Source: Candidatus Heimdallarchaeota archaeon (GTDB taxonomy: Archaea; Asgardarchaeota; Heimdallarchaeia; Heimdallarchaeales; Heimdallarchaeaceae). From it: a DNA stretch of 64,000 nt. Where the stretch lies: NCBI GenBank assembly GCA_018238545.1, contig JABCTC010000012.1, positions 1 to 64,000 on the forward strand. The letters are read 5' to 3'. Below are positions 4,010 through 60,343 of this stretch, one piece after another. Position 1 is the first letter of the stretch. Each line of letters opens with the position of its first letter. A program made the translations under genes and the position numbers. Under the pieces are notes generated by a model. It was not told the origin of the DNA, searched no databases, and was given only the letters and a program-made list of their open reading frames with translations.

Positions 4010-5467
4010 TCAGAACTCGTTGAACACCCACTTTGGAACACTTGGTTTTACTTCCGCTGGTATTGGACATTCATAGTTGTTAGAATCTAACCTGTTTACT
4101 AATTCATTTTTAGCTTCTTCTATCAGCTCTGATTTTTCTATAAATTCTAAAGCTGTTAATGCCAATACTTTAGCTGCAACTATCATCCCTTTGTGACCTG
4201 CACTCGTAGTGACTTGGGTTACTTCTTGCCAAGAATGACCAGGTGTTCCTAACGCAACGCAGGTTACTCCGATTTGTGATGTTGGTACAACCCAACTCAC
4301 ATCTCCTACATCTGTTGAACCAGGAAGAACAATTTCGGGAATCTTATTAGGTAAAATATCTTCAAATAAAACATCATTCTTTATTTTATCAAACATCTCT
4401 TTTCCTAAAATATTTTTAAAATTGGCAAACATTGATACTTCGGATCTTTCATTAGTTGCGAACGAAGCTTGAATATCCTCTCCGAAACTAATTTCTTCTT
4501 CAGTAAATTGTGGGGGTCCTACTTCTATGAATTTGTCAAATAAAACTGAGCCAATAATATTGTTCGGAATTAAATTAGATGTTGCTTTATCAAGAATAAC
4601 CTCAACTTCTGTTTCCGTCATCATTGCTGCACCTTGAGCTACTTTGATTACTCTTTCGTAAATCTCCTTAGTATGTTGATTTGTTGGAGCTCTGACTAAA
4701 TACAACACTTCTGCATCAGCTTGGACGACATTTGGAGCATTTCCACCTGTGTTTGTTATAGCATAATGCAACCTTGCATCTGAGTCTATATGTTCCCTTA
4801 GATAATTTGCACCTACATTCATGAGTTCAACAGCATCAAGAGCTGATCTACCAAATTGAGGACCAGCTGCTGCATGAGCACTTATCCCTTTAAAACGGAA
4901 ATAAGCTTGGATATTGGACAGACTCGCTAGATTGAATATAAAATTAGTACTGAAAGGGTGCCAACAAAGAGCAATGTCAACATCAGTAAACAACCCATCT
5001 CTTACCATATATGTCTTACCAGATCCACCTTCCTCACCTGGACAACCATAATATCTAATTGTACCTTCTAGATTATTTTTTTCTAAATATCTTTTTACTG
5101 AAATAGCTGCTAATAAACTACCTACACCAAGTAGATTGTGACCACACCCGTGACCGTGACCGTTTGGAATTATAGGCTCTTTTTCACATGTATTTGGTTT
5201 TTGACTTAGTCCTGCCAAGGCATCATACTCGCCTAATAATGCAATTACTGGACCTTCCTTTCCATAAGTGCCAATAAATGCTGTAGGCATATCAGCTAAT
5301 CCTTTGGAAACTTCGAATCCTTCTTCTTCTAAAACCTTCATTTGTAATTTTGCAGATTTTACTTCTTCAAAGCGTATTTCTGCAAATTCCCAGATGTCAT
5401 TTGCCATCTTAATGAATCTCTCTTTGTTCTCTTCTATCCAATTAAGTATAGTTTCTGATTTTACCAT
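4010..5467 (-). CDS. M20-family amidohydrolase, AbgB-like
   Basis: 485 residues, matching the length of AbgB (aminobenzoyl-glutamate hydrolase subunit B) and related M20D amidohydrolases. The metal-site motif HGHGCGHN lies at about 104-111, the glutamate pair is in GCPGEEGGSGK (about 145), and CWHPFST (H170) and a late GTPGHSWQ supply further ligands. The lid/dimerisation domain spans roughly 190-300. Family members hydrolyse amide bonds of p-aminobenzoyl-glutamate or other acyl-amino acids in the cytosol, using two divalent metals. AbgB normally pairs with an AbgA paralogue, which is absent here. The substrate is therefore open; peptide or N-acyl amino acid turnover is equally possible. There is no signal peptide. 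Confidence 0.82.
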   Translation of the reverse strand: MVKSETILNWIEENKERFIKMANDIWEFAEIRFEEVKSAKLQMKVLEEEGFEVSKGLADMPTAFIGTYGKEGPVIALLGEYDALAGLSQKPNTCEKEPIIPNGHGHGCGHNLLGVGSLLAAISVKRYLEKNNLEGTIRYYGCPGEEGGSGKTYMVRDGLFTDVDIALCWHPFSTNFIFNLASLSNIQAYFRFKGISAHAAAGPQFGRSALDAVELMNVGANYLREHIDSDARLHYAITNTGGNAPNVVQADAEVLYLVRAPTNQHTKEIYERVIKVAQGAAMMTETEVEVILDKATSNLIPNNIIGSVLFDKFIEVGPPQFTEEEISFGEDIQASFATNERSEVSMFANFKNILGKEMFDKIKNDVLFEDILPNKIPEIVLPGSTDVGDVSWVVPTSQIGVTCVALGTPGHSWQEVTQVTTSAGHKGMIVAAKVLALTALEFIEKSELIEEAKNELVNRLDSNNYECPIPAEVKPSVPKWVFNEF

Positions 5468-5519
5468 TTCTAGAACCTAGGAGAAAAGAACAATGAGCTG
5501 TTTTAATCTTTTCTAGAAT

Positions 5520-6296
5520 TCAAAGTTTGTTTAAAGCTTTCTGGACTCGACTCTCAATAAATTTTGCAAGCAAATTTTTTGAAAGTGGTATATTCGCATC
5601 ACAGTAAAAATCTGATTCCAACCAACCTTTCTCTTTCCAATGCTCATAATCCAAAGGAAGCTCTTTTTTAGCAAAGGTTATCATTACACGCATAATGCGA
5701 AAATAGGATAAATCATACAAACCAAGTTTAGGTTTTTGATTTTTCAAGACCTTAGTATGGATCTCTTTACTAAGTTTCTTGATTTCTTTTGCTATTGGTT
5801 CAGGATCTCTTTCATGGAGAGACATTCTAACTATCAACCTACCAATTGGAAAGCATACCCACCTTCGAGCAACATTGTCTAAATAGTCAAGTGTTTCTTT
5901 TCCTCCCGAATATTTTGTTGTAGCAAGTAGGAATGAATGCTTATCAAATAACCATGGACGATGCATAAAGTATACCATTCTATCAATAAAATTCTTCATG
6001 ATTCCACTAATGAAATCACAGTAAACAGGTGTGGCAAAGAATAATACGTCAGCTTTTGACATTTTGTTAATAATTTCTTCTACATCTGCAAAATTTGGAC
6101 ACTTTCCTATACCGTGGATGAGACATAGCTCACAACCTCTACAAAACTCAATTTTGTGCAGAAAAGCGTACTCCATAGTAAAGTTATATTTTTCCAGTTC
6201 ACTCTCAAACATCTTAAGAATATTATATGCACTCTTCTTTCTACTAGTTCCAATCAGTGCTAAAATTGTCTTGTTGACAGTCATCTTATCCCTCAA
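5520..6296 (-). CDS. Iron-sulfur flavoprotein / NADPH-dependent FMN reductase family
   Basis: Flavodoxin-fold protein: N-terminal ILALIGTSRKKSAY (FMN phosphate loop), a cysteine cluster CRGCELCLIHGIGKC like that of methanogen iron-sulfur flavoproteins, and ATPVYCDFISGIMKNFIDR, the second flavin-binding segment. Isf-type proteins carry FMN and a 4Fe-4S cluster and pass electrons from ferredoxin to oxidised acceptors, including oxygen or peroxide. The C-terminal 80 residues beyond the fold are not recognised. The frame opens with a TTG at 6296; ATG 6284 (MTVNKTILAL) behind GAGGGAT is the likely start. It probably has its own transcript. Confidence 0.75.
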   Translation of the reverse strand: MRDKMTVNKTILALIGTSRKKSAYNILKMFESELEKYNFTMEYAFLHKIEFCRGCELCLIHGIGKCPNFADVEEIINKMSKADVLFFATPVYCDFISGIMKNFIDRMVYFMHRPWLFDKHSFLLATTKYSGGKETLDYLDNVARRWVCFPIGRLIVRMSLHERDPEPIAKEIKKLSKEIHTKVLKNQKPKLGLYDLSYFRIMRVMITFAKKELPLDYEHWKEKGWLESDFYCDANIPLSKNLLAKFIESRVQKALNKL

Positions 6297-6504
6297 TTCT
6301 ATAACTAATAGCTATGGAAAAATAGGTTAATAACTTTTTACCCATATTTTGATAATATCATCTAAAAGGGCATCTTCTTGGAAAGGCGTTAGACAGCTAG
6401 CGTGGTTCTACACTTATTTTACAGATGTTAAACAATCTTTTAACAAGATCACTATCTTACAAGTATGTGAATAAACTCTTTCAGATATAAAGAATTATAC
6501 TCGT

Positions 6505-6559
6505 TAAATCTATAACCCTTTGACGCAAGGAATTAGTCCTGAGCTGATTTTTGTTTTAC
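6505..6559. repeat. Copy 1 of a 55-bp near-identical repeat
   Basis: Matches 7184-7238 with only about 3 differences in 55 positions. The copy spans the last codons of the FG-GAP gene, its stop codon and about 28 nt downstream (shared core CTATAACCCTTTGACGCAA). Confidence 0.8.
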
Positions 6560-6616
6560 TAGTTTCTTAAATGGTTGATGTTTTTGGAGTGGGAGAAGAG
6601 CTAATAGATGTGAAAT
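6533..6616 (-). pseudogene. Relic of the 3' end of an FG-GAP protein gene
   Basis: On the minus strand this reads ...LPKHQPFKKLVKQKSAQD and then a stop. The intact gene at 7212 ends ...LPSKYQIFKKQAKQKSAQD. The identical KQKSAQD-stop ending and conserved flanks show that this is the tail of a lost paralogue; a TAA at about 6617 closes the frame upstream. No FG-GAP repeats remain. Confidence 0.7.
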
Positions 6617-6697
6617 TTAATATAATCTCTCAGTATAAGTTATCTTCGAAGAGATTGAACCTACTATAATGGTGAATTTAATAAAAAAAGAATAAGT

Positions 6698-7160
6698 CTA
6701 AGAGTCTTTTTCTATTGAAAACTCTTTTTGACTCTTATTTTCTTGAGACAGCTTCTTTAACGTTTTAAGAGCGGAAAAAGACGATCTAGGTCCAAAAATT
6801 TGCATCAACGGAAGAATTCCTAAAAAACTCAAAGTAAGCAAGGAGAACTAATATTGGAAACTCAATAATAAAAGCGATTATCATGTAAAGAATATCCCTT
6901 TTTTTAGTTATGAGATAAGATACAAGAATCACTAAAAGATATAGAATTAGTACACTCCTAGCAAACATTTGTGCTTCAAAGGCATAACTCTCCTGAAAAC
7001 CTGCGAAAAGGAGCATTGCTAAGAAGAAAATAGGTAGCAATAAATGTTGGAATAAGCTGTATGTCGAGTGTTGTTTTGTATGTAATAAAATATGTAGTCT
7101 TGTGGTGTATTCCACATCTTGCTCTGGCATTTCTTCTTCATCTACTATATTTTTATTCAT
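6698..7160 (-). CDS. Small three- to four-helix membrane protein, frameshifted near its end
   Basis: The frame from ATG 7160 gives 124 aa with hydrophobic helices around 43-60, 66-84 and 90-110, then stops at 6786. At an A6 run (6822-6827; T6 on the coding strand) a one-base shift lets the protein continue as FLGILPLMQIFGPRSSFSAL and a charged tail ending FSIEKDS at 6698. That ending is far more protein-like, so the true product is probably about 153 aa and the short form an indel artefact or mutation. N-terminus cytosolic and acidic (VDEEEMPEQDVEY). No known family. The gene sits between the FG-GAP gene and its relic, so it was part of the same duplication. Confidence 0.55.
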
Positions 7161-48729: not shown

Positions 48730-49473
48730 CTATTGTAATTTTTTGACAATTTGTTTCAATATTGTTTGTACGGTATTCAATTTATCTTCAAGTTTTCCTA
48801 TTCTTTCTACTAGAGTGTCAAATTCAGCACGAGAAACAGTTTCCGTACTCATTGAAGTTTCTGTAATCTGTTTTGTTCCCATTGCTTCTTTAACATCAAT
48901 AATTCCATCTGTTTCTTCCGGTGGATCAACCTCTTGGATGTTGTTTACTAATAACAATCTATATGCGAGAAAATCAAATGTTTCTTGAATATTTTGACCA
49001 GTTAAAGCACTTGTTTCACAGTAATAAAATCGTATACCTGTTTCAATTTCCAAACGATTGCAAAATTCAAGAGCCATGTCTCGTGAAACCCTTCTACTCT
49101 CTTCAAGATCGACTTTGTTAGCTACCACAAAGTAGGATAAAATGCCATTATTTGACCCTTCTATTGCTTCCTCAACCCAGTTGGAAAGATTAGTCATAGA
49201 TTTAGGATCTTGACAATCAAAGACCATAATAGCGGCCGTTGCACCCTTGTAAAAAGATTTTCTAACAGATTGATAACTATCCTGACCTGCTAAATCCCAT
49301 ATTTGAAAAGTTATTAGCTCTTCATTTTTTTCCATTTTTTTTGTTGCAAAGTCAGCACCTATGGTTTTAAGGTAACTCTCTTGGAATCCCTTTCCCATAT
49401 ATCTTTCTCTGATAGAAGTTTTACCCACTGCTCCATCACCAGCTAAAATGATTTTAAAATTCCATTTTCTCAT
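48730..49473 (-). CDS. Ras/Rab-like small GTPase with C-terminal coiled coil
   Basis: 247 aa. All G motifs are present: G1 GDGAVGKTS (12-20), G2 Thr37, G3 WDLAGQD (59-65, catalytic Gln64), G4 NKVD (119-122), G5 ETSA (153-156). The domain is Rab/Ras-like (about 6-175), the class greatly expanded in Asgard archaea. Residues 180-247 add a linker and a coiled coil (RIGKLEDKLNTVQTILKQIV) instead of a CAAX or CC prenylation signal, so membrane binding would be indirect. It should switch between GDP and GTP to recruit effectors. It lies 12 nt after a coiled-coil gene (49486), a candidate effector or regulator. Confidence 0.93.
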   Translation of the reverse strand: MRKWNFKIILAGDGAVGKTSIRERYMGKGFQESYLKTIGADFATKKMEKNEELITFQIWDLAGQDSYQSVRKSFYKGATAAIMVFDCQDPKSMTNLSNWVEEAIEGSNNGILSYFVVANKVDLEESRRVSRDMALEFCNRLEIETGIRFYYCETSALTGQNIQETFDFLAYRLLLVNNIQEVDPPEETDGIIDVKEAMGTKQITETSMSTETVSRAEFDTLVERIGKLEDKLNTVQTILKQIVKKLQ

Positions 49474-52317: not shown

Positions 52318-52632
52318 TTAACGCCTTCGCATCTGTAAACCTTCGTTTTTCTCTTCTTCTTTTTCGTCAGCATCTTTTGATGGTATTGAATGCTTATATG
52401 ATGTACGAGATGTGAAAAGAATAATCGATAACCCCATAATACCTAAGCCTGCAAAAAAGCCATATTCATTATCGAGAAATACTTGAAACACTAAAATTAA
52501 AGTCATTCCTGCTACAAAGAGTAGCCCAATGATGACTGTATATATTAAGTTGAATCTCTTATTGTGGAATAGCCCTGTCTTCTTTGTGGGTTGCTCTTCT
52601 TTTTCAGGCGTGTTCTTCTTTTTTGAGCTCAT
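52318..52632 (-). CDS. Two-helix membrane protein, unknown
   Basis: 104 aa. Charged N-terminus (KKKNTPEKEEQPTKKTG), helices LIYTVIIGLLFVAGMTLILV and YGFFAGLGIMGLSIILF, and a charged tail ending RRR. The pattern suggests both ends in the cytosol. It lies downstream of the possible EMC6-like gene on the same strand (69-nt gap), so the two could act together. Function unknown. Confidence 0.55.
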   Translation of the reverse strand: MSSKKKNTPEKEEQPTKKTGLFHNKRFNLIYTVIIGLLFVAGMTLILVFQVFLDNEYGFFAGLGIMGLSIILFTSRTSYKHSIPSKDADEKEEEKNEGLQMRRR

Positions 52633-52701: not shown

Positions 52702-53088
52702 TCATGGAAACCATTCTGGAAACATAACACCGGAGATAGGAACGCCCCCATTCATCATCCAAACAAGTGCCCAGATGGCAGTCATTGTTATGAAATATTG
52801 AAACATTGCAGATGTGAAATATGATCTTATTTTGATTCCTGGTTCTTTCTTTCTAAATAGTAACATCCAGACTAAAGAGATTGTTAAGAAAAGTAGTAAC
52901 ATGGTTAATCCTGCTGGCCACCTTACAAAGCGTGTAGCACCAAAAATTGCTCCCGCAACAAACGCTAGAACGACCTTAGACCAATATACTTGGTTCATTA
53001 CAGCCATATCTTTTATTTTTTGAAGGATATTCTTAGGTTTCAAACTATTTTTAATCTTATCTGTAAATTTTAATTTATCTGTGGACAA
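52702..53088 (-). CDS. Small membrane protein, EMC6/Rab5IP-like candidate
   Basis: 128 aa. A cytosolic N-terminus of about 38 residues is followed by three helices: YWSKVVLAFVAGAIFGATRF, WPAGLTMLLLFLTISLVWML and FQYFITMTAIWALVWMM. The FxAGxIFGxxRFxxW-GL core, a loop, then Y-F-T-S---Y---W-A-L-W matches the layout of EMC6/RAB5IF-type proteins, found in eukaryotic and archaeal membrane-protein insertion complexes. The match is by pattern, not by alignment. It diverges from rqcH with about 20 nt between the start codons. Confidence 0.42.
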   Translation of the reverse strand: MSTDKLKFTDKIKNSLKPKNILQKIKDMAVMNQVYWSKVVLAFVAGAIFGATRFVRWPAGLTMLLLFLTISLVWMLLFRKKEPGIKIRSYFTSAMFQYFITMTAIWALVWMMNGGVPISGVMFPEWFP

Positions 53089-53108
53089 TTCAAATCACCG
53101 TGATCAAC

Positions 53109-55124
53109 ATGAAGACATCATTATCTAGTATTGACATATCTGCTTTAGTACATGAGTTGCAACCAAAATTAATTGGAAGCTGGGTTAATAATATTTATTC
53201 AATATCGAAAAATCGAGTTATATTAAGATTTCGTAAGTCAACAGAAAGTCCTATGGAGCTCGTTATAGAACTTGGAAAACGCTTTCATCTTACGAAATAT
53301 GTTAGAAAAAAACCAGTATCACCAAACAACAAAATAATGACCCTAAGAAAGCATATTAGAAACCTACCAGTGAACAAGTTTTACCAAAGGAAACTTGATC
53401 GTGTGATAGTTTTCGAGATTGCTTATAAAGATGGTTTCTACAAATTGGTTATTGAATTGTTCGGGGATGGAAATTTTATTCTAGTCGGTCCAAACAATAA
53501 GATAATACTTGCTTATCATTATAGAAGAATGAAAGATCGTGATATTCATCCTGGAAAGATCTACAAATTCCCCCCCTCTCCTAACGAAAACATAACTACA
53601 TTAACTCAAGAGCTATTTGAAGAGAAAATTAAAACAGCTGAAGGTAAAATCATCAATTTTCTAAATGATATTCTTGGACTAGGACCGTTATATTCAAAGG
53701 ACATTTTAACTAAATCAAACGTCCAAACAAAAATCATAGAAGAATTAGATGATGAGTCTAAAGAATTGCTTTACAACCAGATTAGTGCATTAAAAGAACA
53801 TATTGCTGAGAAAAACTTCACTTTTACTAAGTATATTGATGAAGATGAAGTTGTTGATATCACCCCTTTAGAGCTCTCAAAATATAGTGATTTAGAGAAG
53901 CTTGAAATTGAATCATTCAATGATGAACTTGATGATTTCTTCTCAAATCAGGAAGAAGAACCTGAATATGTTGAAGATAAAAAAGTAACTACTGGAAAAA
54001 AGACCAAATATCAGAAAACTCTCCAGAGTCAGCAAAATCATCGAAAAAAACTGATACAACAAGAAGAAGAAGAGAAACAAAAAGGAAATCTACTCTATGA
54101 TTATTTTGCTGCAATTGATGAACTATTAACAACTATAGTGAGTGCAAGACAGAACGATATTCCTTGGGACAAAATAGTTGAGAAGCTAGAACTAGCTCGA
54201 GAAAAAGGTATCCCGTCAGCTGTAATTCTTGAGAAAATTAACCCTAAAACTAAACAATTATGGCTAAATCTCCTTAATGAAAGAACAGGTGAGAAAGAAA
54301 TCATTGAACTAGATTTTACTTTACCCTTGGTGGAAAGTGCTAATTTACTCTATGAGAAATCAAAGAAGGCTAGAAGAAAAATACCCGGAGCTAATGATGC
54401 AATAGCTAGATCGAAGAAACTGATTGACGATGTAGCATCTACTCAAGAAGAAATTATTGAGAAAGTCGAATCAACACCTATGGTACTTAAAAGAAACAAG
54501 CGCTGGTATGAGAAATTCCATTGGTTTTTACGTGGAGATCAATTAATAATTGGTGGTACAGATGCTAATTCTAATGAAAGAATACTGAAAACATATCTCG
54601 ATGATAATGATTATTTCTTTCATGCTGACGTTCATGGTGCTCCCTATGTCGTAGCTAAAGATGGCTTATCTAATCTTTCAGAAGAAGATTTTCAAGAAAT
54701 AGCTGTGTTCGCTTTAAGTTACTCAAGTTTGTGGAAGGATAATAAGCTTGTAGGAGATGTTTTTCGAGTTCTGCCCGATCAAGTTAGTCTTACTCCTCCT
54801 TCAGGGCAGTTTTTAGCTAAAGGTAGCGTCATGATATATGGTGAGAAGCATTATTTCAAGAATGTTGAAATAAACCATGCAATTGGTCTGGTAATTTTTG
54901 AGAACTATGCTCAAATTATAGGCGGGCCAGTAACAAGTATTGATCAAAGAACAACCATGTATGTTGAAATCAAACCTGGCGATGTTCCCAAAGGAAAGAT
55001 AGCTAATCAGATCAAAGCTAAGCTAGCAAAACAGTGCCCTTCTGAAGATCTTTACAAACTAGACGCTTTGACCATCAATGATTTATTACCATTCATACCT
55101 GGTGATGCAGAGATTATTGAATAA
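53109..55124 (+). CDS. rqcH: RqcH/NFACT (NEMF/Rqc2-like) ribosome quality control protein
   Basis: 672 aa. NFACT-N domain (about 4-180) with the Asp-Arg pair in KLDRVIVFEI needed for tRNA recognition in bacterial RqcH and yeast Rqc2. A helix-hairpin-helix-like middle (about 185-230) and a coiled coil with acidic spacer (about 310-445) follow. NFACT-R is at about 475-590, including WYEKFHWFLRGDQLIIGGTD, HADVHGAPYVVAK and PSGQFLAKGSVMIYG. It binds 60S/50S-type subunits stalled with nascent chains and directs C-terminal alanine-type tailing. ATG 53109 is the start, as GTGATC serves as its ribosome site; GTG 53100 is the longer option. It heads an operon-like run 53109-56879. Confidence 0.93.
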   Translation: MKTSLSSIDISALVHELQPKLIGSWVNNIYSISKNRVILRFRKSTESPMELVIELGKRFHLTKYVRKKPVSPNNKIMTLRKHIRNLPVNKFYQRKLDRVIVFEIAYKDGFYKLVIELFGDGNFILVGPNNKIILAYHYRRMKDRDIHPGKIYKFPPSPNENITTLTQELFEEKIKTAEGKIINFLNDILGLGPLYSKDILTKSNVQTKIIEELDDESKELLYNQISALKEHIAEKNFTFTKYIDEDEVVDITPLELSKYSDLEKLEIESFNDELDDFFSNQEEEPEYVEDKKVTTGKKTKYQKTLQSQQNHRKKLIQQEEEEKQKGNLLYDYFAAIDELLTTIVSARQNDIPWDKIVEKLELAREKGIPSAVILEKINPKTKQLWLNLLNERTGEKEIIELDFTLPLVESANLLYEKSKKARRKIPGANDAIARSKKLIDDVASTQEEIIEKVESTPMVLKRNKRWYEKFHWFLRGDQLIIGGTDANSNERILKTYLDDNDYFFHADVHGAPYVVAKDGLSNLSEEDFQEIAVFALSYSSLWKDNKLVGDVFRVLPDQVSLTPPSGQFLAKGSVMIYGEKHYFKNVEINHAIGLVIFENYAQIIGGPVTSIDQRTTMYVEIKPGDVPKGKIANQIKAKLAKQCPSEDLYKLDALTINDLLPFIPGDAEIIE

Positions 55125-55197
55125 ATATAGGAAAACAAGCAGAAAATGTAAAACCTTTAAAGGCACAAATAATCTTACGTTAACATAAGCAACTAGG

Positions 55198-55797
55198 ATG
55201 TTTTACAAAGTGAAATCAATATTCGATAGGAAAAAATTCGAACTTGCTCTCAGTGAGATAATGACAACTAAAGTTATTTCTATAACTCTTGAGACATCAG
55301 CTGAGGTTTGTGCAAAATTGATGGTTGAAAATCATATAGGTTCAATAATCGTTCTTGACAAAAATAACAAAGCACTTGGAATTATTACAAAGGAGAATTT
55401 GATTAAGAATGTAATCGCAGCAAACGCGGATGCATCAGCTGTTTTAGCTTTAGATATAATGTCAAGTCCTGTTATTACTGCTCCACAAACTATGACAGTC
55501 ATACAAGCAATGCAATTAATGTCCAAACAAAGAATAAGGCACTTAGTCATTCTTAAAGGAGGTAAAGTTGCTGGAATGTGTTCCGATACAGATATTTTCA
55601 AGGTTGTCCCCCAACTTATCATGCTGGAACAAGAATATTTGAAAGTATTAGGAGAATCTCAAATTACTGAAGAACTTCCCGATCTAGCAGGATATTGTGA
55701 CGACTGCAAAGAGTTTAGAGATGATCTCATCTTCCATCAAGGTCTCTATATCTGCCATAATTGTGCTCCTGTAGGATTGTTGGAGCGTAATGAATAA
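55198..55797 (+). CDS. CBS-domain pair with C-terminal zinc ribbon
   Basis: 199 aa. CBS1 at about 20-75 (IMTTKVISITLETSAEVCAK, IGSIIVLDKNNKALGIITKE) and CBS2 at about 85-140 (IMSSPVITAPQTMTVIQAMQ, RHLVILKGGKVAGMCSDTDI), then a zinc ribbon CDDCKEFRDDLIFHQGLYIC followed by HNC. CBS pairs bind adenosyl nucleotides and report energy status. The zinc ribbon suggests contact with RNA or protein. It ends 8 nt inside the next ORF, so the two are translationally coupled. ATG 55198 has TTTAAAGG about 45 nt upstream. Confidence 0.82.
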   Translation: MFYKVKSIFDRKKFELALSEIMTTKVISITLETSAEVCAKLMVENHIGSIIVLDKNNKALGIITKENLIKNVIAANADASAVLALDIMSSPVITAPQTMTVIQAMQLMSKQRIRHLVILKGGKVAGMCSDTDIFKVVPQLIMLEQEYLKVLGESQITEELPDLAGYCDDCKEFRDDLIFHQGLYICHNCAPVGLLERNE

Positions 55798-56257
55798 GTT
55801 CTATGCAGATTCAATGCTCGGTAAATTGGCTCGTTTCTTAAGGTTTCTTGGTTATGATACTCTTTATCGTAGTGAAGAATCAGTTGAGAAAATGTTAGAA
55901 ACCTCTATTGAAGATAATCGGATTGTTTTATCAAAATCAAAAGATATTGTAAATAAATGCAATAAATTGAGCATAAAATCTTTTTTTATGTCTGCTAATG
56001 AAATTGAATATCAACTCAGAGTGTTGCATAATGTTTTGCATCTAGAGATGTCTACCCCTCCCCTAAATACCAGATGCAGTATGTGTAATAATGAATTGAT
56101 TGAAAAAAACAAACAAGAAATTATTAACCTCATTCCTAAGCGTACAGCAAGCCATCATGATCGTTTTTGGCAATGTTCTGCTTGTGGAAAAATTTATTGG
56201 ATAGGTAGTCATTGGAAAGATATTGAAAAAACAATAACTAGTGCAAAAGTTGGTTGA
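55790..56257 (+). CDS. Mut7-C RNase domain protein
   Basis: 155 aa. Starts FYADSMLGKLARFLRFLGYD, the hallmark of the Mut7-C (DUF82) PIN-like RNase domain with its conserved Asp in ADxMLGKLAxxLR. VLSKSKDIV follows, with a C-terminal zinc ribbon CSMC...WQCSACGKIYWIGSHW. Mut7-C domains are thought to cleave RNA. The gene overlaps the CBS gene by 8 nt and lies within an rqcH-led operon, so stalled-mRNA or tRNA cleavage is a plausible role. Confidence 0.88.
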   Translation: MNKFYADSMLGKLARFLRFLGYDTLYRSEESVEKMLETSIEDNRIVLSKSKDIVNKCNKLSIKSFFMSANEIEYQLRVLHNVLHLEMSTPPLNTRCSMCNNELIEKNKQEIINLIPKRTASHHDRFWQCSACGKIYWIGSHWKDIEKTITSAKVG

Positions 56258-56261
56258 AGTT

Positions 56262-56879
56262 ATGGATGTAAAAGATGATACTGGTATCTATTTAGTCAAA
56301 TTAGCTAGACATTCTGCTAGAAGTTGGGTCATAAATAATGAAAAACCTAAACCGATTGATCCTATTCCTGAGCAAGCAAAATTCACGACGGGAGTTTTTG
56401 TTACAGTAAAAGTATTTGAAAATGGAGAAACTCATCTTAGAGGTTGCATTGGTTACATTCTAGGTATAAAATCCTTGTATGAGGAAGTAATAGACCTTTC
56501 AAGAGAATCTACACTTAATGATCCTCGATTCCCTCCTGTTAAAGAACATGAATTTTCCTCTCTGGTTTTTGAGGTAACTGTTCTAACTCCACCTGTTGAA
56601 ATTGAGTATTCTGATTCTGAAGATTTACTTAAACAAATCAATGTTCCTGGAGATGGTTTAATTGTTAAATTTGGTAAATTTCAGGGACTATTATTGCCTC
56701 AGGTACCTGTAGAACAGAATTGGGATAAAGAGGAGTTCCTTTCATATACTTGTAGAAAAGCTTACTTGCCTGTTGATATATGGAAAAAAGAGAAAATATC
56801 TGTGAAGAAATTTCAAGGAATAGTATTTAGTGAATTAGAACCAAAGGGAGAAATTAAACGATTACCTTTGAATTATTAA
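56262..56879 (+). CDS. AMMECR1-family protein
   Basis: About 205 aa from ATG 56262 (MDVKDDTGIY), five bases after the previous stop. It contains the conserved AMMECR1 core: GVFVTVKVFENGETHLRGCI, then GYILGIKSLYEEVIDL and DPRFPPVKEHE, and the late LLPQVPVEQNWDKEEFL. The family is universal in archaea and eukaryotes; a redox- or RNA-linked role is suspected but not proved. It is the last gene of the rqcH run and overlaps the convergent ThiI-like gene by 4 nt. Confidence 0.92.
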   Translation: MDVKDDTGIYLVKLARHSARSWVINNEKPKPIDPIPEQAKFTTGVFVTVKVFENGETHLRGCIGYILGIKSLYEEVIDLSRESTLNDPRFPPVKEHEFSSLVFEVTVLTPPVEIEYSDSEDLLKQINVPGDGLIVKFGKFQGLLLPQVPVEQNWDKEEFLSYTCRKAYLPVDIWKKEKISVKKFQGIVFSELEPKGEIKRLPLNY

Positions 56880-57835
56880 TTATAGAAAATTGAAATCTCC
56901 TCTTCTCTCAGATCTTCTACTAAGTATGGTACAAAAACTGGAATTGTGGTAGGAAATTTCATAGATATATCCTCAAAGATGGTTTTTGACATAGCAATAC
57001 TCAGACTCTGTGTTTTTTGATAATAATTTAAAACCTCTTCAACATTGAATTGTTTATCACTTGAAAATATGACTCTTTCAGTTTTCTTGAGATTTTGTTG
57101 TAAAGCAAGCAATTTCGAGATTGCTTTTTGATATTCCTTTGGGTATTGGGAAAACTGTTTTATTGAATATATTATTGTAATTGCTCCCCTTTTGTATAGT
57201 TGTAATATATTCGCTATATCTTCATTTTCACCAGAAATAATAACTAATACCTTGCCTTGACACCCCGCAGGAAGTCCTCCCAATCCTTTCGCAATCTGAT
57301 CATAAACATATGTCACTCCTTCGCGTATTTCCAAGTATAAATAATACTCTGGATCAGTTAGATTGACTCTTAAGTTGTTATCATTAATATTGTCTAGAAT
57401 GAACTCTCCAATGTCAGCTGCTATCTCTACGCTCGAAAAAGAATGCTTTCCTGTACGTTTAACTTTTACTGCAAACGTGGAGTGATTGCGTAACCTCTCA
57501 AAAAATTGTTCCCGTATTATTCCTGTGATTTCTTGAAAATCAGTTTTGCAACTATATACTTTGCTTATGCTTGATATACCTGGAATGAAATTGCTCAAAA
57601 GATGTACTATTTTATCTGTTTCTGCTGAAAAAACAAATATTCTGCTAAATCTGTTTTCTATTTGAAATTCCTCAATATCATTATTCTTCAAAACAAATTC
57701 AATATGAGATATTAGTTTTTTTGTTAACCATCTTCTGGTTTTAGGACTTTTAATACCTATTTCAGAAAATCTTATCAAAATTATTTGATGTTGCTCATTT
57801 AATCCAATGCTATCATCTAGATTACTCTGTTTCAA
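56876..57835 (-). CDS. ThiI-like THUMP protein with degenerate PP-loop
   Basis: 319 aa. ThiI order: an N-terminal ferredoxin-like region (IILIRFSEIGIKSPKTRRWL), a THUMP domain (about 60-175, including FAVKVKRTGKHSFSSVEIAA and YLYLEIREGVTYVYDQIAKG), then the adenylation domain beginning GLPAGCQGKVLVIISGENED. In active ThiI this is SGGIDSPVA; here the PP-loop reads SGENEDIAN, so ATP pyrophosphatase activity is probably lost. There is no rhodanese domain. Function may be limited to tRNA binding. It overlaps the TFS-like gene upstream by 14 nt and AMMECR1 downstream by 4 nt. Confidence 0.82.
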   Translation of the reverse strand: MKQSNLDDSIGLNEQHQIILIRFSEIGIKSPKTRRWLTKKLISHIEFVLKNNDIEEFQIENRFSRIFVFSAETDKIVHLLSNFIPGISSISKVYSCKTDFQEITGIIREQFFERLRNHSTFAVKVKRTGKHSFSSVEIAADIGEFILDNINDNNLRVNLTDPEYYLYLEIREGVTYVYDQIAKGLGGLPAGCQGKVLVIISGENEDIANILQLYKRGAITIIYSIKQFSQYPKEYQKAISKLLALQQNLKKTERVIFSSDKQFNVEEVLNYYQKTQSLSIAMSKTIFEDISMKFPTTIPVFVPYLVEDLREEEISIFYN

Positions 57836-59401: not shown

Positions 59402-60343
59402 CTAGAAAAATCCGGGATTAAGTATAAACGATGGAATGACAATTGCGACATTGATAACCACAACTATAGCGAAGACCTTCCAGTCCCATTTAAGTATTTT
59501 TGCTCCATCTAGTTGCCAGACTGGTAAACAATTGAATAGAGCAATTAGAGCGTTAAATTGTGCTACTTGTATGAAAATATTTGGCGTTGCAAATAACCCA
59601 ATAAATGGTATTATCCCAAAACTCGCATCAGTTAATAAACCTATAACTAAACTAATAGCTCCAATAACTGCATTGATTGCAGGTCCTGCCAAAGCAACCA
59701 TACCTAGATCTTTTTTGTCCATTTGCCTGCTCAAAGGTACAATGGCAACAAAACCTGGAACAATTAATCCAATACGAAAAATCAGGGTAAATAAAGTGTA
59801 AATTATCCCTCTCGTCCAGAGTATGTATCTTGCATACTGCCCTCTTCGCTGAGCGACAACCTTGTGAGCCATCTCATGTGGAAGAAAAGCTGTTGTTATC
59901 AAAATGGCTGAAATTAGAAAACCCCACCAATCATTAAAGAAAATCAGTCGAGAAAAACCAAAAACTAATACTATGAGAGTGAAACCTATGAGAATATCAA
60001 CCAATTCACTACCAAAAGAGAGTAAACCTTTAGATTTTTTCAAACGTTGTTCAATGAGTTTCTTCCTAGTTTCCTCATCAGCATAAGCATATGGGTCTTG
60101 TTGTCGTTGTTGTTGCCCCATTGCTTGTTGAGCCATTTTCATGGCACTTTGGGCCATTTGTCGGACTACTTCTTCATTCGATGGGGTGCTTGTAGCTGCA
60201 TAAGGTTGTTGAGCTTGCACACGTACTGCAGGACAACGATGTGCTTCTGGATCTCTATGTTTCTGACAAAACGATCCTCTACAATAACGACAGTAGAACA
60301 GTAAGTCTTCTTGCGCTCCACAATTAGGATACTCACATCTCAT
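59402..60343 (-). CDS. Site-2 protease (M50) with N-terminal AN1 zinc finger
   Basis: 313 aa. The AN1-type finger (1-36) follows the pattern CxxxxCx8CxxCxxxxCxxHxxxxxHxC: CEYPNC, FYCRYC, FCQKHRDPEAHRC. A Gln/Ala-rich linker follows. The M50 membrane core has about six helices, zinc-site motif LPHEMAHKVV (HExxH), and NCLPVWQLDG with the second Asp ligand. Such proteases cut within membranes. The eukaryote-like AN1 finger suggests ubiquitin- or stress-type targeting. It is divergent from fhs. Confidence 0.92.
   Translation of the reverse strand: MRCEYPNCGAQEDLLFYCRYCRGSFCQKHRDPEAHRCPAVRVQAQQPYAATSTPSNEEVVRQMAQSAMKMAQQAMGQQQRQQDPYAYADEETRKKLIEQRLKKSKGLLSFGSELVDILIGFTLIVLVFGFSRLIFFNDWWGFLISAILITTAFLPHEMAHKVVAQRRGQYARYILWTRGIIYTLFTLIFRIGLIVPGFVAIVPLSRQMDKKDLGMVALAGPAINAVIGAISLVIGLLTDASFGIIPFIGLFATPNIFIQVAQFNALIALFNCLPVWQLDGAKILKWDWKVFAIVVVINVAIVIPSFILNPGFF

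Follow-up and report, generated by a model that had tools for sequence, protein, structure and literature searches.

A divergent EMC6-like and rqcH gene pair is conserved across archaea and may belong to a neighbourhood for stalled or idle ribosomes

Surveying a 64,000-nucleotide (nt) stretch of a Candidatus Heimdallarchaeota archaeon genome (assembly GCA_018238545.1, contig JABCTC010000012.1, positions 1 to 64,000; hereafter the window), we found that rqcH, the gene for the archaeal RqcH/NEMF protein, stands back to back with a gene for a small EMC6-like membrane protein, an arrangement that is widely conserved in Asgard archaea and recurs in other archaeal phyla. Downstream of rqcH lie genes for a CBS-domain protein with a zinc ribbon (CBS2-Zn), a Mut7-C protein and AMMECR1, which also recur near rqcH far outside the window's family. 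The most economical reading would be a neighbourhood for ribosome quality control and hibernation that also has a membrane arm. The window may represent the form that an ancient archaeal neighbourhood for stalled or idle ribosomes, acting partly at the membrane, takes in Heimdallarchaeia, and we give this reading a probability of about one half. The window lies on contig 119 of a 128-contig, 3.6-Mb draft genome, whose closest relatives in a GTDB scan are Heimdallarchaeota with RqcH identities of 87-88%. The five genes are as follows.

52702-53088, minus strand: EMC6-like gene of the OPTI/EMC6 family, three-helix membrane protein of 128 amino acids (aa), TTG start at 53088, Heimdall-specific N-terminal extension
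53109-55124, plus strand: rqcH, archaeal RqcH/NEMF of 671 aa, ATG start, with an in-frame GTG at 53100
55198-55797, plus strand: CBS2-Zn, CBS pair and C-terminal Cys4 zinc ribbon, 199 aa
55790-56257, plus strand: Mut7-C domain and Cys4 zinc finger, 155 aa
56262-56879, plus strand: AMMECR1, from an ATG, with an LRGCIG motif; an alternative in-frame GTG at 56241 would overlap the Mut7-C gene

The open reading frames bear out the layout proposed in a first-pass annotation of this DNA, with a 20-nt divergent spacer between EMC6 and rqcH, an 8-nt overlap between CBS2-Zn and Mut7-C and a 4-nt gap between Mut7-C and AMMECR1; 73 nt separate rqcH from CBS2-Zn. Pfam and NCBIfam profile scores likewise uphold its family calls for RqcH, the CBS-zinc ribbon protein, Mut7-C and AMMECR1.

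Mapping the pair across Asgard archaea, we found EMC6 within 1 kb of rqcH in 89 of the 101 genomes holding both genes, divergent in 87 of those 89, and a close pair in 19 of 23 families. The same divergent arrangement occurs in 50 of 72 distinct loci from the phylum of a Bathyarchaeon, which we read as Thermoproteota, and in 16 of 18 usable loci from the phylum of G121, a metagenome-assembled genome labelled 'Euryarchaeota', for which rows were read by eye. Scripted counts are slightly low where mechanical reading-frame starts overlap (13 of 18 for the latter phylum, versus 16 by reading). The Thermococcus phylum shows it in only 4 of 43 loci, and these four include no high-scoring Thermococcus-like locus; the survey covered Asgard archaea and these three phyla, leaving out Halobacteriota, lineages of the Methanobacteriales type, Thermoplasmatota and DPANN. 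EMC6 gave 74 matches near rqcH, compared with 4-7, essentially within the family, for most other window neighbours, among them the archaetidylinositol-phosphate synthase, Mrr-like, IPP isomerase-like and AN1-M50 genes, the membrane protein gene at 52318 and others. On these numbers we rejected chance or lineage synteny as the explanation for the EMC6-rqcH pair. While EMC6, CBS, Mut7-C and AMMECR1 genes recur near rqcH far beyond the window's family, the other neighbours on either side almost never do. The first-pass annotation had staked its proposal on a conserved rqcH neighbourhood in other archaea, and one comprising these four genes was found. In family f5, where EMC6 stands away from rqcH, it adjoins AMMECR1 in all three genomes. 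One Lokiarchaeote-type genome (G048) carries two rqcH genes, and a separate EMC6-like gene diverges from each of them (contig 50, 63030-65575 and 86687-89198).

Scanned as a single sequence, the window's EMC6-like protein scores 18.4 bits, under the Pfam cutoff of 23.3. A family profile built from an alignment of 37 orthologues adjoining rqcH matched OPTI at E=3.8e-11 and human and yeast EMC6 at E=5.5e-6 to 1.5e-4, its only significant matches in PDB, and at E<=0.05, 25 of the 37 orthologues match Pfam EMC6 (PF07019) and nine match EMC6_arch. OPTI and EMC6 also provide the top four PDB folds for the predicted model (predicted local distance difference test, pLDDT, 83.8), with template modelling (TM) scores of 0.49-0.72 and probabilities of 0.97-1.00 but weak E-values of 0.4-0.8. 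Moreover, two Asgard loci encode a fusion of an EMC6-like half to an EMC3/TMCO1-type insertase half, divergent from rqcH: L136 of a Helarchaeote (5357-6211, minus strand; EMC3 half PF01956, E=1.9e-20) and L049 of genome G107 (6123-6980, minus strand; E=1.5e-21). Profile, fold and fusion evidence agree despite the sub-cutoff single-sequence scan, and we therefore rejected a false call; the EMC6-like layout noted in the first-pass annotation, which was to be checked by profile search, is confirmed as homology. A long EMC6 match in L048 was considered as a further EMC3 fusion and rejected, its extra part being LVIVD/beta-propeller-like repeats.

OPTI is the obligate partner of the TMCO1 insertase, and the window's genome has one EMC3 gene. 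Lewis and Hegde, querying archaeal proteomes, detected a single EMC6-like protein in each and built a model of how it pairs with YidC/EMC3 (PMC8675477). The window protein resembles archaeal EMC6-like proteins (PF19094/PF07019), eukaryotic EMC6 and OPTI (C20orf24) in its profile and fold matches. What sets the window type apart from them is the conserved divergent placement of its gene beside rqcH and, in two Asgard lineages, EMC6-EMC3 fusion.

RqcH itself is a full-length match to NCBIfam RqcH_arch (NF041120; 584 bits, cutoff 400), with NFACT-N, coiled-coil and NFACT-R domains (PF05833, 205 bits; PF05670, 85 bits). Residues D9, D97 and R98 are invariant across 25 Asgard RqcH proteins, and the Asp-Arg pair aligns in NEMF, yeast Rqc2 and Bacillus subtilis RqcH. 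In characterised NEMF-family members, D9 and this pair are needed for tailing; by family likeness, the window RqcH would also tail nascent chains. Bacterial RqcH works in alanine tailing (PMC8373112). With archaeal RqcH, NEMF, yeast Rqc2 and B. subtilis RqcH the window protein thus shares a full-length family score, NFACT-N and NFACT-R, and the invariant pair; its gene differs in context, with a divergent EMC6-like insertase gene on one side and the CBS, Mut7-C and AMMECR1 set on the other, an arrangement for which we found no description among NEMF-family genes in the open-licence literature.

The downstream set has a fuller form in other archaea, in the order EMC6 (divergent), rqcH, CBS2-Zn, at least one gene for a protein with four CBS domains (tetra-CBS), dihydroorotase, Mut7-C and AMMECR1. 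It is complete in L136 and L272, and Thorarchaeota have all of it except Mut7-C. The window is a reduced version without the tetra-CBS and dihydroorotase genes, and exactly its five genes recur in the distant loci L286, L294, L302, L307 and L308. Linkage to rqcH within Asgard archaea is found for Mut7-C in 7 of 19 families and for AMMECR1 in 6 of 23. The association of AMMECR1 with Mut7-C was tabulated in 2019 as arCOG01336-arCOG04290 (PMC6393860), where arCOG04290 carries the label 'PIN- and Zn ribbon domains', which we take to mean Mut7-C. The window pair is likewise adjacent on one strand, and the two are linked in 10 of the 19 Asgard families holding both, but here the pair is joined to rqcH, EMC6 and CBS genes. 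In four loci of the Thermoproteota phylum (L263, L268, L305 and L274), Mut7-C and AMMECR1 lie directly behind EMC6, on the far side from rqcH, and in two of the four dihydroorotase joins them: the set is kept, and its side switched.

The tetra-CBS proteins provide a link to hibernation factors. A Thorarchaeal cluster member matches PDB 9zng chain 7 (SriD) at E=7e-33 over 259 residues. For the model of one cluster protein (pLDDT 92.7), the closest fold is that of 9zng (E=2e-26), an entry titled 'M. acetivorans 70S ribosome in complex with SriD'; the matches ranked after it include SriA and SriB in 9znf, Dri on the P. calidifontis ribosome in 9e7f, and SriC and SriD in 9zni, with fold TM scores of 0.87-0.92. 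These fold matches to SriA-D and Dri are all ribosome complexes, and the uL14 sequence of the 9zn entries is exactly that of published M. acetivorans ribosomes. PMC13324472 treats CBS-module families as hibernation factors of archaea that are 'often arranged in gene clusters' and states that HibA and standalone CBS modules seldom occur together; its text mentions neither RqcH nor NEMF. The likeness to these factors (Dri, SriA-D, HibA, CM-1/4/5) lies in the relatives' tetra-CBS proteins, which have the full module of two CBS pairs.

CBS2-Zn of the window, by contrast with those factors, has one CBS pair (CBS x2, 94 bits) and a C-terminal Cys4 ribbon and matches them only in part. Its best PDB sequence match is 9zni chain 6 (E=6.6e-16), from the entry titled as the M. 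acetivorans 70S with SriC and SriD. With its single pair it was rejected as a Sri, Dri or HibA member, and we regard it as a relative. It also matches a Ta0289-like CBS-ribbon protein (PDB 1pvm/2qh1; E=2.7e-6), where the CBS pairs are alike and the likeness is limited to that part; the domain order of Ta0289, CBS pair then zinc ribbon, we take to be the same. No full-length match of the cluster tetra-CBS type was found in the window's genome, which encodes the following protein elsewhere.

L332:1111-2271 (genome contig 4), minus strand: HibA-like protein, CBS domains and HPF/RaiA-like tail, 386 aa

It scores 152 bits against PDB 9sr9 chain H, taken as HibA from its chain length and the ribosome entries, and its gene adjoins one for a small Ras-like GTPase. 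A HibA-like protein together with the lack of a full-length tetra-CBS protein fits the exclusion of HibA and standalone modules described in PMC13324472. The first-pass suggestion that the CBS pair may tie this locus to energy state is plausible, since its relatives among archaeal CBS proteins include factors bound to the ribosome (PMC13324472).

Two short elements bear on transcription and translation in the window.

53094-53104, no strand assigned: palindrome ATCACCGTGAT, inside the 20-nt divergent EMC6/rqcH spacer
55147-55161, plus strand: TGTAAAACCTTTAAA, BRE/TATA-like element (BRE, transcription factor B recognition element), putative promoter of the CBS-Mut7-C-AMMECR1 genes

TGTAAAACCTTTAAA is identical in nine of nine same-family rqcH-CBS spacers, whose flanks diverge, and occurs once in the window at up to two mismatches. 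It looks like a BRE/TATA promoter, and the CBS block is probably a transcription unit of its own in the window's family. With this conserved promoter-like element in the 73-nt rqcH-CBS spacer, the plus strand therefore probably holds at least two transcription units, which speaks against the single run from rqcH to AMMECR1 read in the first-pass annotation; we judged a single five-gene operon unlikely for this family. In G050, a closed genome of the same family, a gene block lies between rqcH and CBS-Mut7-C-AMMECR1. In Thermoproteota-phylum genomes rqcH often overlaps or almost abuts Mut7-C or CBS2-Zn, so that co-transcription is likely there. ATCACCGTGAT is kept in five aligned sequences, one with an inserted A, and could act as a Shine-Dalgarno-like site for both starts (GGTGAT for the EMC6 TTG, GTGAT for the rqcH ATG); an inverted-repeat search of the spacer returned none at the tool's minimum length.

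A neighbourhood of this kind might work as follows. After a stalled ribosome is split, RqcH would bind the large subunit with its peptidyl-tRNA and add a C-terminal tail, as its family and its Asp-Arg motif suggest. The EMC6-like protein would pair with the archaeal EMC3/YidC insertase and, given that its gene and rqcH have stayed divergent neighbours, would most likely serve stalled nascent membrane proteins, keeping or freeing them at the insertase. The CBS proteins, relatives of ribosome-bound inhibitors, may tie ribosome engagement to adenylate levels. In what are the weakest steps, Mut7-C would attach to RNA within the complex, which AMMECR1 might modify. An ancestral module can be sketched more specifically, in which the EMC6-like/EMC3 pair takes stalled membrane-protein chains from the RqcH-bound 50S and co-encoded, hibernation-related CBS sensors choose between rescue and ribosome storage; we offer this tentatively, as less likely than not.

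Several observations weigh against a ribosomal neighbourhood. Dihydroorotase, a pyrimidine enzyme, shares it in many genomes, and some members may be non-ribosomal. Mut7-C and AMMECR1 lie away from rqcH in most Asgard families, Thermococci carry RqcH without this context, and the window's CBS protein, with two CBS domains only, is itself no Sri, Dri or HibA. The surveyed genomes are mostly draft assemblies, and the proposed interactions and activities are predictions. The main doubt comes from dihydroorotase membership and mobile downstream genes, with which gene-order inertia or a looser common function would also be compatible. Under inertia, housekeeping genes would simply have inherited their common surroundings and divergent promoters from an ancestor, with no joint work, and dihydroorotase within the cluster would be expected, as would a mixed and rearranged downstream set, such as in L034, where a block of ~4.7 kb lies between rqcH and the CBS gene, and a CBS block with its own promoter-like element in the window's family. 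However, neighbours at the same distance are lost beyond the family while EMC6-rqcH persists in 19 of 23 Asgard families and three phyla, and the paired copies in G048 and the EMC6-AMMECR1 adjacency in f5 argue for selection. We consider inertia unlikely, although of the rivals it survives best.

The first-pass annotation itself proposed a candidate ribosome-rescue operon in which Mut7-C is an RNase that could cut stalled mRNA or tRNA. The window protein is a clear Mut7-C member (PF01927, 145 bits, cutoff 23) with an invariant Cys4 finger (C96, C99, C129, C132), and a PDB search with it returned nothing significant. Of the PIN-like acids, D7 and D23 are kept while the third position is Ser50, leaving the acidic set of a PIN-like RNase incomplete; among 36 relatives this position is D in 20 and S in 15, and cleavage is therefore doubtful. 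We know of no MUT7-C protein shown to be a nuclease. The RNase label stems from a proposal that Mut7-C is PIN-like with shared catalytic residues (PMC1779556), and in several loci of the Thermoproteota phylum the Mut7-C gene does come after rqcH and overlaps it. Yet a MUT7-C structure is TOPRIM-like rather than PIN, with RNA binding in animal proteins (PMC11347159), and the rqcH-Mut7-C linkage is patchy among Asgards. Cleavage of mRNA or tRNA by a co-encoded RNase thus finds little backing, and an operon built around it seems to us improbable.

Last, the pathway could be one of RNA modification, with the glycosylase-like NFACT-N domain and AMMECR1 acting on rRNA or tRNA bases in ribosome rescue. 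Burroughs and Aravind (RNA Biology 2014) reportedly placed AMMECR1 in the archaeal NFACT pathway and proposed an RNA-modification role for NFACT-N with it. AMMECR1 is conserved in the set (PF01871, 159 bits, cutoff 25; TIGR00296, 162 bits), its LRGCIG motif (L59-G64) being conserved in at least 90% of 54 sequences, and the glycosylase-like idea for NFACT-N has been restated (PMC6514570); alanine tailing by bacterial RqcH, however, requires no base chemistry (PMC8373112), and the EMC6 and CBS genes are left unexplained, so we give this pathway little chance.

Other genes of the window were recorded alongside. The 3' end of AMMECR1 runs 4 nt into a convergent gene (56876-57835, minus strand) for a ThiI-like protein with ferredoxin-like and THUMP domains, which aligns only to residues 1-249 of the 373-residue ThiI model and possibly lacks part of the catalytic domain; a gene for a TFS-like zinc-ribbon protein comes after it. 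An M50 (site-2-type) membrane protease fused to an AN1-type zinc finger is encoded at 59402-60343 (minus strand), and a Ras-family small GTPase typical of Asgard archaea (PF00071, E=1.5e-41) at 48730-49473 (minus strand).

All the protein families discussed here are already known, as is the AMMECR1-Mut7-C link (PMC6393860). An AMMECR1-NFACT link was reportedly predicted in 2014 by Burroughs and Aravind. The first-pass description of a possibly undescribed module is therefore only partly true; of the EMC6-rqcH and CBS-rqcH links we found neither in the open-licence literature. That literature likewise yielded no paper linking RqcH to EMC6 or dihydroorotase and no account of the pair across three phyla, of EMC6-EMC3 fusions beside rqcH or of hibernation-type CBS genes in an rqcH cluster. 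The conserved pair, the fusions and the hibernation-type CBS genes name candidate partners of archaeal RqcH that can be tested in cultivable archaea. They bear on a possible coupling between the insertase and the quality control of stalled membrane proteins. If such a coupling is real, the link between an insertase and NEMF-type rescue would be older than eukaryotes, and it may have been in archaea that ribosome rescue became coupled to the insertion of membrane proteins.

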